From Bacteroidota bacterium (lineage in GTDB: Bacteria; Bacteroidota; Bacteroidia; JACCXN01), in assembly GCA_013696965.1 (NCBI GenBank), contig JACCXN010000010.1:1-64000 (forward strand): 64,000 bases of DNA, given 5' to 3'. Of this stretch, positions 14,815 to 54,734 are shown one piece after another. A program made the translations under genes and the position numbers. Under the pieces are notes generated by a model. The model saw only the letters and a list, made by a program, of their open reading frames with translations. It did no database searches and was not told the origin of the DNA. The stretch's first letter is position 1, and each line of letters opens with the position of its first letter.

Positions 14815-17274
14815 ATGTATACAGGGAATTTACATGATGACGATAATCTTGGAAGGTATAAAGAACGCCTTTCTAATTTCAGTAAAGAATTTGAATTCGG
14901 ACTTTTTCTAATTATTATCAGAAAAAATTTAATCTGGCTTGCAACTTTTATTTTCCTGGCAGCTTTATGTGCTTTTATTTACTTGCGTTACACCCCTCCC
15001 ATTTATGAGGCAAGCTCCATAATTCAGGTTAATTATGAAAACAATGCGAGCAAGGTATTAGGAGTTGATAATTTACACGATCAGCAGGATATTTCAAGAG
15101 AAATAGAACTTTTAAGATCAAAACTGTTTTTAAAACAAGCCCTCACAAACCTCCCTCTTAATGTAGCTTATTTTAATCAAGGAACTGTTTTGGAATTTGA
15201 ACAATATACTAGTTCCCCATATACCATTGAAATAATTGAGCATAATCCTGCAATTGAAGATCTGCCAATTTTTATTGATTTTTATGAAAATGGAAAAACT
15301 GAAATTTCTTATCAATATGGTCAAAATGAAATTAAACTAACTGCTCCTGATAATAAAACATTTGAATTGCCACATTGTACAATTAGTGTTACTGTTAATA
15401 ATCCTGATGCCATTAAAGAACAAATTTTACAGAATAAAAAAGAACGCTTTTTCTTTAAAATCTCTAATATTGACAATATTACCCGGACTTATATGGGCAA
15501 ATTGGAGGTAAAATTGCTTAATTCTGCTGCCAAAACAATTCAAATTATTATTAAAGACAATAACCCTGAAAAATGTGCTGATATTGTGAACGCTATTACA
15601 GAAGAGTATTTGAAATATGAAGTAGAAAGGAAAAGCGAAAGCGCAATTAATGTATTAGCATTTATTGATACCCAAATTGAAGGTGTTTATGGACGGTTAA
15701 AAGAATCTGAAACTTCTATTCAAGTGTTCAAAACCGAAAACAAACTTGCCAATGACAAAGATTTCATTTCTCTTAACATTGAAAAATTTTCATCAATTGA
15801 ATCAGAAATATTAGAATTGGAACTGAATGAAAACATGCTTAAAACCATTGAAAAAAGAATCAGTGAATCCTCTAGTGAAATAGATATTTACAAACTGCTC
15901 CCACTTTTTGCCGGAACCCAGTATGAGGGAACTTCAATTAACAAATTAATATCAAGACTTCACGAATTGTTATTGAGCAAAGAATTAGCTCTTTTTGATG
16001 AAACCCCTAACAGTGGAAACATAAAAACAATTGATTATCAAATCAAGATTCAAAAGAAACTGCTCATAGAAAGTATACAATCATTAAGCAAAAAAACTAC
16101 CGAGAAAAAAAATAATTTAATTGCCAAAACCCTTGTTATTGAAGAATCGTTTTTAAAGGCACCTTTAAAAGAGGTTGAATTTGCCAGACTTCAAAGACAT
16201 TTCTCTATCAATGAGAAATTCTACAACCTTTTAATGGAAAAAAGAACAGAATATTCCATTTTAAAAGCAAGTTTTATCCCTCAAAATCTTATTCTGGATC
16301 GCGCCTATCCTCCATCTATGCCATTTTCCCCAAACAAATCTATTATTTTTACAGCTTGTTTGCTTGTTGGATTATTAATGGGAATTGCTCTGATTTTAAC
16401 TCGTTACCTGATTCATAATGATATTGACAGCCTGAATGAAATTGTTAGACATTCAAATGCATCAATAGGAATACTCGGAATTATTCCAAAATACAAGGAC
16501 GATATTCCTGTTTCACAACTTATTGTCAATAAAAATCCAAAATCATTAATTGCTGAAGCCTTTAGGTCTATAAGAACCAATCTTCAATTTATTTCAAATG
16601 AAACCGGGCCTAAAGTTATTGCTATAAGTTCTACAATTTCTGGTGAAGGGAAAACCTTTACAGCTCTTAATCTTGGGGGAATAATTGCTTTTTCTGAAAA
16701 AAAAGTTATTATTATTGATCTTGATATGCGCAAACCTAAAATTCATAAAGGATTTAATAGCCCCAATGAAATTGGAATGAGTACTATTCTAATTGGCAAA
16801 CATACTATTGAAGAATGCATTAGAAATAGCACAATGAAAAATTTGGATTTCATTACCGCTGGACCAATTCCTCCTAACCCCTCAGAGCTAATAATAAGCA
16901 ACAATATGGATCTTGTTATTGAAAAGCTTAAATCGCTTTATGATGTTGTAATTATCGACAATCCGCCTGTAGGGCTAGTTACTGACGGGATTTCCATTTT
17001 TCAAAAAGCAGATTATCCCATTTATGTTTTTAGATCTGAATATTCAAAGAAAAATTTTATTCACAATGCCGACCGTTTAGTGAATGAAAATAAAATTACA
17101 AAACTATCTGTTATTTTAAATGGGGTGGATATTGACAAGAGCACTGCCGGCTACGGTTATGGGTATGGGTACGGCTATGGTTCAAATTATGGTTATTATG
17201 ACGAAGAAAAGAAACCTTCAAAAAAAACAATTCTCCAACGTCTGTTTAACAAGCAAATCCAAAACATTTCATGA
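14815..17274 (+). CDS. Wzc-like chain-length regulator and bacterial tyrosine kinase
   Basis: 819 aa. Transmembrane segment near residues 40-58, a Wzz domain and long periplasmic helices (about 60-500) with the GNVR-like EVEFARLQRHFSINEKFYNLL, then a second membrane segment (IIFTACLLVGLLMGIALIL). The cytoplasmic BY-kinase follows: Walker A SGEGKT around residues 609-614, Walker A' VIIIDLDMRKPK, Walker B DVVIIDNPPVG. The C-terminal tail is rich in Tyr (eight within about 20 residues, GYGYGYGYGYG then NYGYY), the expected autophosphorylation cluster. It controls polymer length and export. Overlaps rfbC by 4 bases. Confidence 0.93.
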   Translation: MYTGNLHDDDNLGRYKERLSNFSKEFEFGLFLIIIRKNLIWLATFIFLAALCAFIYLRYTPPIYEASSIIQVNYENNASKVLGVDNLHDQQDISREIELLRSKLFLKQALTNLPLNVAYFNQGTVLEFEQYTSSPYTIEIIEHNPAIEDLPIFIDFYENGKTEISYQYGQNEIKLTAPDNKTFELPHCTISVTVNNPDAIKEQILQNKKERFFFKISNIDNITRTYMGKLEVKLLNSAAKTIQIIIKDNNPEKCADIVNAITEEYLKYEVERKSESAINVLAFIDTQIEGVYGRLKESETSIQVFKTENKLANDKDFISLNIEKFSSIESEILELELNENMLKTIEKRISESSSEIDIYKLLPLFAGTQYEGTSINKLISRLHELLLSKELALFDETPNSGNIKTIDYQIKIQKKLLIESIQSLSKKTTEKKNNLIAKTLVIEESFLKAPLKEVEFARLQRHFSINEKFYNLLMEKRTEYSILKASFIPQNLILDRAYPPSMPFSPNKSIIFTACLLVGLLMGIALILTRYLIHNDIDSLNEIVRHSNASIGILGIIPKYKDDIPVSQLIVNKNPKSLIAEAFRSIRTNLQFISNETGPKVIAISSTISGEGKTFTALNLGGIIAFSEKKVIIIDLDMRKPKIHKGFNSPNEIGMSTILIGKHTIEECIRNSTMKNLDFITAGPIPPNPSELIISNNMDLVIEKLKSLYDVVIIDNPPVGLVTDGISIFQKADYPIYVFRSEYSKKNFIHNADRLVNENKITKLSVILNGVDIDKSTAGYGYGYGYGYGSNYGYYDEEKKPSKKTILQRLFNKQIQNIS

Positions 17275-45828: not shown

Positions 45829-45861
45829 AAAAAAGGCTGCCTTAAGGCGGCCTTTTTTTTT
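45829..45861. terminator. Bidirectional rho-independent terminator
   Basis: A6-GGCTGCC (45829-45841), loop TTAA, GGCGGCC-T9 (45846-45861). The stem has one G-U pair. It sits between the convergent PKD lipoprotein and acidic-protein genes and serves both. Confidence 0.9.
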
Positions 45862-45868
45862 GTGTTTT

Positions 45869-46294
45869 TTACTCTTCCTCTGAATAATCATTAGCTCCAT
45901 ATCCTAATCCTGCCTTATCCTCATTTGTTACCCGCATATTTTCAAGTAATTCATCATTATCCGGCTCCGAGGAGGATTCAGGAGGTGCGGATAAAGTAGG
46001 ATCATATCGGTTTTTCCTTAAAGTTTCTGGCAGGTCACCGGTATCCTCTGACTCATCACCTAAATCCCCATCCTTTGGTGAAAAAAAAGACCCATAAGTG
46101 ATTTTTTCACCCTCATCCTCTTCGACTTCTATAGCATCGAATTCTCCAAACAATTCATCTTCTAATTCTTCTTCAAATTCCTCAAGGTCTTTTTCTTCCC
46201 TTACTTGATCATCTTCCCTTGTTATTTCTGGCCTTTCGCGCTTTCGAACAGGCTTTATGGACTTTTTTGTGGCTATTTGCTTTTTTATTTTCAT
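45869..46294 (-). CDS. Small acidic hypothetical protein
   Basis: 141 aa with no signal peptide or membrane segment. Residues 1-28 are very basic (MKIKKQIATKKSIKPVRKRE); from about 29 on it is strongly acidic (EEKDLEEFEEELEDELFGEF), ending YSEEE. The charge split and low complexity suggest a disordered protein; no family recognised. Its start codon lies at the edge of a repeated element in the upstream intergenic DNA, and it ends at the bidirectional terminator. Reality is supported by the terminator and the length, not by homology. Confidence 0.6.
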   Translation of the reverse strand: MKIKKQIATKKSIKPVRKRERPEITREDDQVREEKDLEEFEEELEDELFGEFDAIEVEEDEGEKITYGSFFSPKDGDLGDESEDTGDLPETLRKNRYDPTLSAPPESSSEPDNDELLENMRVTNEDKAGLGYGANDYSEEE

Positions 46295-46331
46295 ATGTAT
46301 ATAATTTGTTTTTAACTGTCATATGGTATAA

Positions 46332-46383
46332 CCATGTTATATTCATTAGTGTTTGTGAACGGTTCGTGCATGGCTATTTCATA
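46332..46383. repeat. 52-base repeat element, copy 1
   Basis: 50 of 52 bases match copy 2 at 46479-46530 (differences at the T/C of TTAGTGTTT and the T/A after CATGGC). Ends are CCATG and CATGG in inverse orientation; the inside has GAACGGTTC, a short palindrome. It is preceded by a 5-bp hairpin ATGGT-ATA-ACCAT. TTTCATATGTATATAATTT follows it and also occurs at the start of the acidic gene (46289-46307), so the repeated unit is wider than 52 bases. Confidence 0.85.
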
Positions 46384-46458
46384 TGTATATAATTTATTTG
46401 TTTTTAATTTTTCCTTTAAGGAACTCAAGAATGCTAAAGCATTTGTTTTTTAAATGTC

Positions 46459-46476
46459 ATCCCGATTTATCGGGAT
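46459..46476. repeat. Perfect 8-bp-stem hairpin in front of repeat copy 2
   Basis: ATCCCGAT (46459-46466), loop TT, ATCGGGAT (46469-46476). Similar short palindromes with CCCGAT are often scattered in Bacteroidota genomes. No T-tract follows. Confidence 0.75.
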
Positions 46477-46478
46477 AG

Positions 46479-46530
46479 CCATGTTATATTCATTAGCGTT
46501 TGTGAACGGTTCGTGCATGGCAATTTCATA
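46479..46530. repeat. 52-base repeat element, copy 2
   Basis: Second copy, 147 bases after copy 1, with the same orientation and 50/52 identity. It is preceded by the CCCGAT hairpin in place of the ATGGT hairpin of copy 1. Confidence 0.85.
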
Positions 46531-54080: not shown

Positions 54081-54734
54081 ATGAAAGATTCTACTTCAAG
54101 AGAAAAAATCCTTAAAAAAGTCAGAAATGCTTTAATTCATAAATCAGCAAAACTAGATGCTGAAAACATAGATTTTGATTCACCTATTTATAGTAAAATA
54201 GAAGAATCACCGGAAATCGTATTTGCTCAAAAGTTTACTGCCCTTAATGGCAAATTTGCTTTTTGTGAAAACACAAATGAATTTCAATTAATTTTCAAGG
54301 AATTTGTTCAGGAATCAGCACTTGGGGTAATATTTTGTGGACAAGACAGCATTAAAGAACTTTTTAATAATGCGGGAATAAAGTTTGATGACAATTTAAC
54401 AAGCATGACAAATTGTAAGGTTACTGTTACCACTTGCGAGTATCTTGTGGCTCGCACTGGAAGTATAATGGTTTCATCAAGGCAAAGTTCTGGAAGAAAA
54501 CTTCCTATTTTTCCCGATACCCACATTGTAATTGCCTATACTTCTCAACTTGTTGATGATATTAAAGATGCTTTAAAAGCTATCAAAATAAAATATGCAG
54601 AATCTACACCCTCTTTGATTTCTTTAATTTCTGGGCCCAGTAGAACTGCTGATATTGAAAAAACTTTAATATTAGGCGCTCATGGTCCAAAAGAAATTTA
54701 TTTGTTTTTAATTGATGATATTGCAGCATCCTGA
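54081..54734 (+). CDS. LUD-domain protein (LutC/YkgG family)
   Basis: 217 aa. N-terminal helix SREKILKKVRNALIHKS, then a Rossmann-like fold with CEYLVARTGSIMVSSRQSSG, FPDTHIVIAYTSQLVDDIKD and SLISGPSRTADIEKTLILGAHGPKE, the signature region of LutC-type LUD proteins. LutC belongs to the lactate oxidation complex LutABC, but in many Bacteroidota a single LUD gene sits next to ftsH without lutAB, as seen here. Its function in this setting is unknown. Confidence 0.85.
   Translation: MKDSTSREKILKKVRNALIHKSAKLDAENIDFDSPIYSKIEESPEIVFAQKFTALNGKFAFCENTNEFQLIFKEFVQESALGVIFCGQDSIKELFNNAGIKFDDNLTSMTNCKVTVTTCEYLVARTGSIMVSSRQSSGRKLPIFPDTHIVIAYTSQLVDDIKDALKAIKIKYAESTPSLISLISGPSRTADIEKTLILGAHGPKEIYLFLIDDIAAS

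Follow-up and report, generated by a model that had tools for sequence, protein, structure and literature searches.

The repeat at 46289-46529 of the window (the whole stretch of DNA analysed, 64,000 nucleotides) is, on balance, probably a short array in which two units of a non-autonomous mobile element, distributed across Bacteroidota, lie in tandem. The element itself is mobile, non-local and widespread. It is a real entity and, as far as the open-access literature shows, an undescribed one.

The array in the window

An earlier note, made from the letters of the window alone, had drawn attention to two direct 52-base copies, and these are indeed present at 46332-46383 and 46479-46530, identical at 50 of 52 positions and offset by 147 bases. 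The inverted ends CCATG/CATGG and the inner GAACGGTTC that it reported are inverted repeats within the core, and the hairpin before each copy does differ between the two. A flank said to be common to both stands in part: TTTCATATGTATATAATTT lies to the left of each copy, while to the right of copy 2 TTTCATA alone is retained. The natural unit is not the 52-mer of the earlier note; it extends from TTTCAT to TTTCAT. A covariance model of this unit, R1, built without the window's genome, matches the first copy at 46289-46382 (E 5.7e-13, model positions 1-96) and the second, derived copy at 46425-46529 (E 0.0021). Further R1 matches in the window at 15353, 6055 and 49319 were at chance level (E 0.19-0.37), and a partial repeat match at 54695-54713 was short and, after reading, judged to be chance. 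The features of the array are as follows.

46289..46382, + strand: unit 1, canonical element, TTTCAT to TTTCAT, 94 nt (model R1)
46377..46529, + strand: unit 2, long derivative, 153 nt (other arrays in the genome are arranged alike)
46377..46382, + strand: TTTCAT common to units 1 and 2
46289..46294, + strand: left TTTCAT, the target hexamer; read on the opposite strand, the ATGAAA with which the acidic gene begins
46289-46307 and 46377-46395: TTTCATATGTATATAATTT, just these two occurrences, each left of one copy
46289..46297, + strand: TTTCATATG, 5' arm of the left helix conserved in the family (RNAalifold, 64 elements from other genomes; covariation)
46320..46328, + strand: CATATGGTA, 3' arm of that helix, guide-like (one mismatch against the consensus CANATGGAA)
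46323-46335: ATGGTATAACCAT, hairpin before copy 1
46332..46373, + strand: core, with outer arms CCATG/CATGG and inner GAACGGTTC as the right-hand hairpin (inverted repeats)
46357-46365 and 46504-46512: GAACGGTTC, inner palindrome
46396..46445, + strand, limits approximate: extra module of unit 2, containing AAGGAACTCAAGAATGCTAAAGCAT / AAGGAACTCAAGAATGCTAAAGCATT (long versus short units)
46459..46476, + strand: hairpin ATCCCGATTTATCGGGAT (before copy 2), where unit 1 has the guide-like ATGGT
46524..46529, + strand: right-end TTTCAT of the array, with unrelated sequence beyond
45869..46294, - strand: acidic gene (ORF, 141 aa) with the array at its start codon

The flank overlaps the start of the acidic gene, as the earlier note had seen: read on the opposite strand, positions 46289-46294 give the ATGAAA with which the reading frame 46294-45869 begins. 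What the note missed is that such an overlap is the rule for the family. The acidic gene is real: its protein has an orthologue in another genome of the same family (G001; 39%, E 3.2e-18) that likewise begins ATGAAA, and no element was found in the 400 bases read upstream of that orthologue. The protein is small and very acidic, is conserved in this one relative of the same family and matched no Pfam family. Between two convergent genes at 45829-45858 lies a strong inverted repeat flanked on either side by T/A tracts, which from its sequence is likely to be a two-way terminator.

Copies and arrays in the window's genome

The window's genome (G000) comprises 3.86 Mb in 106 contigs. The 257-base stretch that holds the repeat gave 73 matches at E<=1e-3 when compared with this, its own genome (40 of the 196 first-look candidates were scored), and the 18-mer at its right end occurs 118 times with at most two mismatches, against 0 occurrences of a backward-read control pattern. 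Recurrence on this scale goes far beyond chance. Within the window and 38 fetched stretches we counted 82 cores, which form 39 arrays, each with 1 to 6 units. The spacing of units is mostly 82-99 nt, rising to 138-151 nt where a further module is present. Adjacent units are often different alleles, as expected if units are added one after another, and most arrays begin with TTTCAT and end with TTTCATA, after which the sequence is unrelated.

The earlier note had allowed for a local duplication without meaning, a reading that two copies lying side by side would by themselves suggest. Since the right end occurs 118 times in the genome and other genera have elements of the same family, we rejected it and leave it next to no probability; there are many other copies in this genome and its relatives.

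The units are not uniform. In 40 of the 82, including the window's second unit at 46459-46476, the palindrome CCCGATTTATCGGG takes the place of the guide-like ATGG; these units are nevertheless dispersed. The long units (those with 138-151-nt spacing, among them the window's at 46396-46445) have a further module, containing AAGGAACTCAAGAATGCTAAAGCATT, within the left end; from their appearance, either short units arose by deletion between ATTT repeats or long units by insertion of the module. Six contigs (C5, C42, C59, C94, C98 and C99) end inside or beside arrays of the element, and both the length of arrays and the number of copies are therefore probably higher than counted.

Distribution across Bacteroidota

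Weak matches in other Bacteroidia share both ends of the element and differ in the interior. A search with the left-end pattern recovered at least 119 stretches in named genomes, and among the matches listed (80 titles) the host was a member of the Bacteroidota in every case: Sphingobacterium, Algoriphagus, Cyclobacterium, Bacteroidales, Dysgonamonadaceae, Prevotella, Chitinophaga, Flavobacteriales and others. From the 119 stretches and six further loci we extracted 122 elements. Each unit consists of TTTCAT, some 85-95 nt and a second TTTCAT, with a conserved left end and a varying interior. An alignment of 64 diverse elements (A1), with rows chosen for TTTCAT at both ends and none taken from the window's genome, gives the left end as TTTCATRTGTNNATAATTT...GTCAYATGGAA; R1 was built from these 64. 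Longer interiors with extra palindromes such as GGCTACGCCGATCTTCGATTC occur at L365-L367 (G065), L195 and L183, and the interior seems to tolerate inserts.

In a survey of 198 genomes sampled over the phylum, with up to 21 candidates scored per genome, the element was present in 16, several of which hold 13 or more copies; where it is dispersed, copy number reaches 100 or more. Carriage by phages or plasmids was considered and rejected: a search of viral contigs gave 0 matches, and a search of plasmids with two elements gave none. Comparison with Rfam returned 0 matches for the window at gathering scores, and for eight element loci at E<=1 none fell at the element.

Evidence for mobility

The dihydroorotase gene of one Algoriphagus species (L308) has a single element at its start, and 18 of 18 close orthologues (81-93% identity) are without it. 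Against these orthologues L308 has cleanly gained 87 nt and lost none, and ATGAAA stands on either side of the insertion. The comparison covered 30 genomes, 11 others of which gave more distant or partial matches only and were left out. A second case is found in the window's own genome, where a Y1_Tnp reading frame (L064:1680-1771) is split by one unit lying between ATGAAAT repeats; the related Y1_Tnp genes L063 and L068 of the same genome have no interruption at that point. The dispersed copies, the empty orthologous site and the target hexamer on both sides bear out the earlier note's suggestion of a small mobile or REP-like element, which was right in kind.

Direct repeats of TTTCAT / ATGAAA on both sides are also what a miniature inverted-repeat element moved by a DDE transposase would show, TTTCAT being its target duplication. 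We consider this highly improbable. The duplication is always the same hexamer, and the ends of the element (RTGT..ATAATTT at one, hairpin-TTTCAT at the other) differ and are not mutual inverted repeats, so that the terminal inverted repeats of such elements are lacking; moreover, the covarying guide described below would be left unexplained.

Insertion at gene starts

On the opposite strand the left TTTCAT reads ATGAAA, and this usually forms the first two codons of a gene. Once 9 of the 122 elements, those with another element before them, had been dropped, ATGAAA was found to open a frame of at least 60 codons (or one open to the contig end) in 95 of 113. With the flanks joined, a stop lies within 50 codons upstream in 73 of the 74 frames that could be judged. 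A stricter classing dropped 34 of the 122 (16 without a right TTTCAT and 18 beside another element) and placed 71 of the remaining 88 at starts, 15 in intergenic sequence and 2 inside genes. For comparison, 1282 control TTTCAT hexamers from these loci comprise 187 at starts, 148 intergenic and 947 inside genes; starts are thus favoured 3.7-fold over other intergenic sites (p 3e-6). This preference could reflect targeting, or selection against other insertions. It is weaker in the window's genome, where 28 of 56 arrays were dropped (16 partial, 12 at contig ends) and 14 of the 28 with both ends found sit at starts, or 14 of 21 when seven whose immediate left neighbour is a further unit are excluded.

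The genes at the left end are unrelated to one another. Their 92 proteins match 137 Pfam families, and the hosts are of all kinds, rho and dehydroquinase (by Pfam) included; judged by its sequence, one (L265) appears to encode ribosomal protein L34. Transposases are not enriched beside the elements, a single Y1 gene (L100) being present among the 92 proteins. That gene begins at an element and was considered as a partner, but it has other repeats on both sides and reads as another target.

Position at start codons and the presence of hairpins might suggest a conserved cis-regulatory leader RNA, and a regulatory RNA repeat was the other possibility offered in the earlier note. This we hold to be very improbable and discount: the genes are unrelated, presence and absence differ between close relatives, the copies form arrays, and some lie away from starts (the 15 intergenic and 2 intragenic of the 88 above).

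Within the leader, TTT is invariant at +11 to +13 of the element (AAA in the gene), and native sites are T-rich at +11 to +14. A-rich sequence supplied by the left end comes to lie at about -11 to -13 relative to the restored ATGAAA, and the host gene would therefore keep a normal-looking translation start, which would explain the survival of start-codon insertions, even in rho. To judge from these positions, the restored leader may well be suitable for the host gene.

Conserved helices

RNAalifold, applied to the 64 elements from other genomes, predicts one conserved helix, in which TTTCATRTG pairs with CAYATGGAA. Stated generally, TTTCATNTG pairs with an internal CANATGGAA. Covariation was assessed on 83 model matches, free of the search pattern and aligned to the model, of which 75 were distinct once 8 identical rows had been dropped. 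The N:N pair is GC, AU, CG or GU in 68 of 74: this variable pair (7/89) is GC in 27, AU in 25, CG in 14, GU in 2 and unpaired in 6, and its covariation score was reached by 0 of 500 shuffles. The C-G type lies outside the first search pattern and appeared unprompted in G253. The remainder of the left helix is mostly invariant and partly demanded by the search pattern, so that almost all of the covariation comes from a single pair. At the third pair, 65 of 75 rows have T.G and none has T.C; the helix is thus intact only on the TTTCAT strand, and on the gene strand it is disrupted. Its G may keep the element from being its own target.

A second structure is formed by the sequence after ATGGAA, which pairs with the sequence before the right TTTCAT. 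Among 39 distinct elements out of 106 (67 were dropped as too similar), cognate arms of this right hairpin gave -7.7 kcal/mol against -4.4 for exchanged arms, a difference reached in 0 of 5000 permutations. When folded as single strands, one element formed both helices side by side, and another formed the left helix and part of the right; for these two, 5 to 8 of 200 shuffles fold as well. The window copy alone folds no better than shuffles. We infer that left guide helix and right hairpin together make up the layout of a guide-directed single-strand element.

The mode of movement

The best explanation of these data, and one we think somewhat probable, is that the element is non-autonomous and moves in the single-stranded manner of the IS200/IS605 family, a reading that stems from the resemblance of its guide-target pairing to guide-directed transposition in that family. 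The element would move as a single strand, namely the TTTCAT strand. Its internal, guide-like CANATGGAA would pair with the target TTTCAT together with the first three bases of the element (NTG), the right-hand TTTCAT would be presented by the hairpin, and joining would take place 3' of TTTCAT, effected by an enzyme acting in trans. As the element has its own TTTCAT at the right end, each insertion would leave a fresh target at its tail and arrays would be built.

The earlier note had proposed looking for a matching transposase, and no transposase gene with the element's ends was found. This weighs against the single-strand reading, as do the element-bearing genomes without Y1_Tnp described below, the dispersed units with another hairpin in place of ATGG, the folding of the window copy no better than shuffles, and the confinement of nearly all covariation to one pair. 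R1 gave four matches at 49 Y1 loci, none of them framed by the element: at L064 it interrupts the gene, at L221 it stands at the start codon with other repeats around, at L237 it is about half a kilobase away and at L065 the match is weak. An autonomous long copy was sought in G065, where three partial model matches were read. Two proved to be elements whose interior is long, and the third (L366) a left end lacking a clear right-hand counterpart; none of them showed a transposase gene.

Movement of a REP-like element in trans by an ordinary resident RAYT (TnpA_REP, a Y1 HUH enzyme) is conceivable on these data but, we judge, unlikely. Y1_Tnp was found in 145 of the 198 genomes – in 15 of 16 that bear the element as compared with 130 of 182 others (Fisher p 0.074) – and the window's genome has 12 matches. 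Yet four element-bearing genomes (G060, G062, G065 and G253, with 15, 33, 28 and 13 copies) lack Y1_Tnp at E<=1e-3, none of the 49 Y1 loci is framed by the element, and the element has no GTAG-type foot and measures about 90 nt, not 20-40 nt. Several Y1_Tnp genes of the window's genome (L057, L058, L060, L063, L064 and L059/L061) sit among their own, differing palindromic repeats, and that genome seems, from these sequences, to hold several REP-like systems besides the TTTCAT element.

Some other enzyme – another HUH protein, a tyrosine recombinase with TTTCAT as its crossover core, or a reverse transcriptase acting by an RNA-copy route – is in our view similarly unlikely. Consistent with it are two copies identical over 96 nt in Sphingobacterium faecale (G062), a genome without a Y1_Tnp match, the preference for start codons noted above, and a covarying helix that would equally suit an RNA of the TTTCAT strand; to our knowledge, however, a target-pairing guide is not usual in recombinase sites. 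More tentatively, as a proposal that may well prove wrong, we suggest that the elements could constitute a separate, Bacteroidota-wide, start-codon-seeking class: about 90 nt long, with the hexamer at both ends and one covarying guide, moved by a non-Y1 enzyme or an RNA-copy route, and leaving the invaded gene with its start and a leader suited to translation in Bacteroidota.

Relation to known elements

Returning to IS200/IS605-style movement, the element shares with IS608 and ISDra2, as PMC6006769 describes their guides and targets, a fixed short left target, a right-end hairpin, a target-pairing guide and ends that are not inverted repeats. Insertion takes place 3' of TTTCAT without loss, as the 18 orthologues of L308 show, the guide TTTCATNTG / CANATGGAA covaries (with 40 of 82 units in the window's genome lacking ATGG), and the right-end hairpin is subterminal, with cognate arms better than exchanged ones. 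Unlike that family, the element has the target hexamer at both ends and apparently one guide for both, is about 90 nt long, and comes with no transposase gene having its ends, some of its genomes being without any Y1_Tnp match. For want of an autonomous copy or a Y1 partner with these ends among the 49 Y1 loci, we do not file it as a member of IS200/IS605; an IS200/IS605-type single-strand mode of action is nonetheless the most likely one. PMC6006769 also reports a lagging-strand preference for IS608. Among 20 listed copies in one complete genome (G170) no such preference was seen, strands being mixed by eye.

With REP/BIME sequences and RAYTs the element has in common many small, dispersed, palindromic copies, clusters and a possible trans-acting Y1 enzyme. 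It differs in being larger, in its start-codon site and in lacking both a GTAG/GGAG foot and a framed RAYT gene; alignment A1 has neither a GTAG-like foot nor a palindrome of 20-40 nt. PMC6006769 attributes 'atypical secondary structures' to REP subclass 2.6 of Bacteroidetes, and the element, compared with these by description only, may be identical to them. The Borrelia IS605 stem-loops of PMC2775950 are likewise gene-linked, dispersed transposon structures that lack a transposase gene; they are reported from the 3' ends of lipoprotein genes carried on Borrelia plasmids, and their source is a known IS605. Our search of the open-access PMC literature found no published description of an element such as ours, which as an absence is weak.

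Modularity is familiar from the BOX elements of Streptococcus pneumoniae, short repeats present in variable number. The TTTCAT element is likewise modular, but BOX elements differ in sequence and have no known target hexamer.

Implications

If our reading is right, Bacteroidota harbour an overlooked mobile element that enters the starts of genes, even of rho, and leaves them intact, and many genes would have had their leaders changed by its insertion. This raises the question of which enzyme moves a 90-nt element in genomes without the expected transposase, and the match between target and guide is simple enough for testing at the bench.
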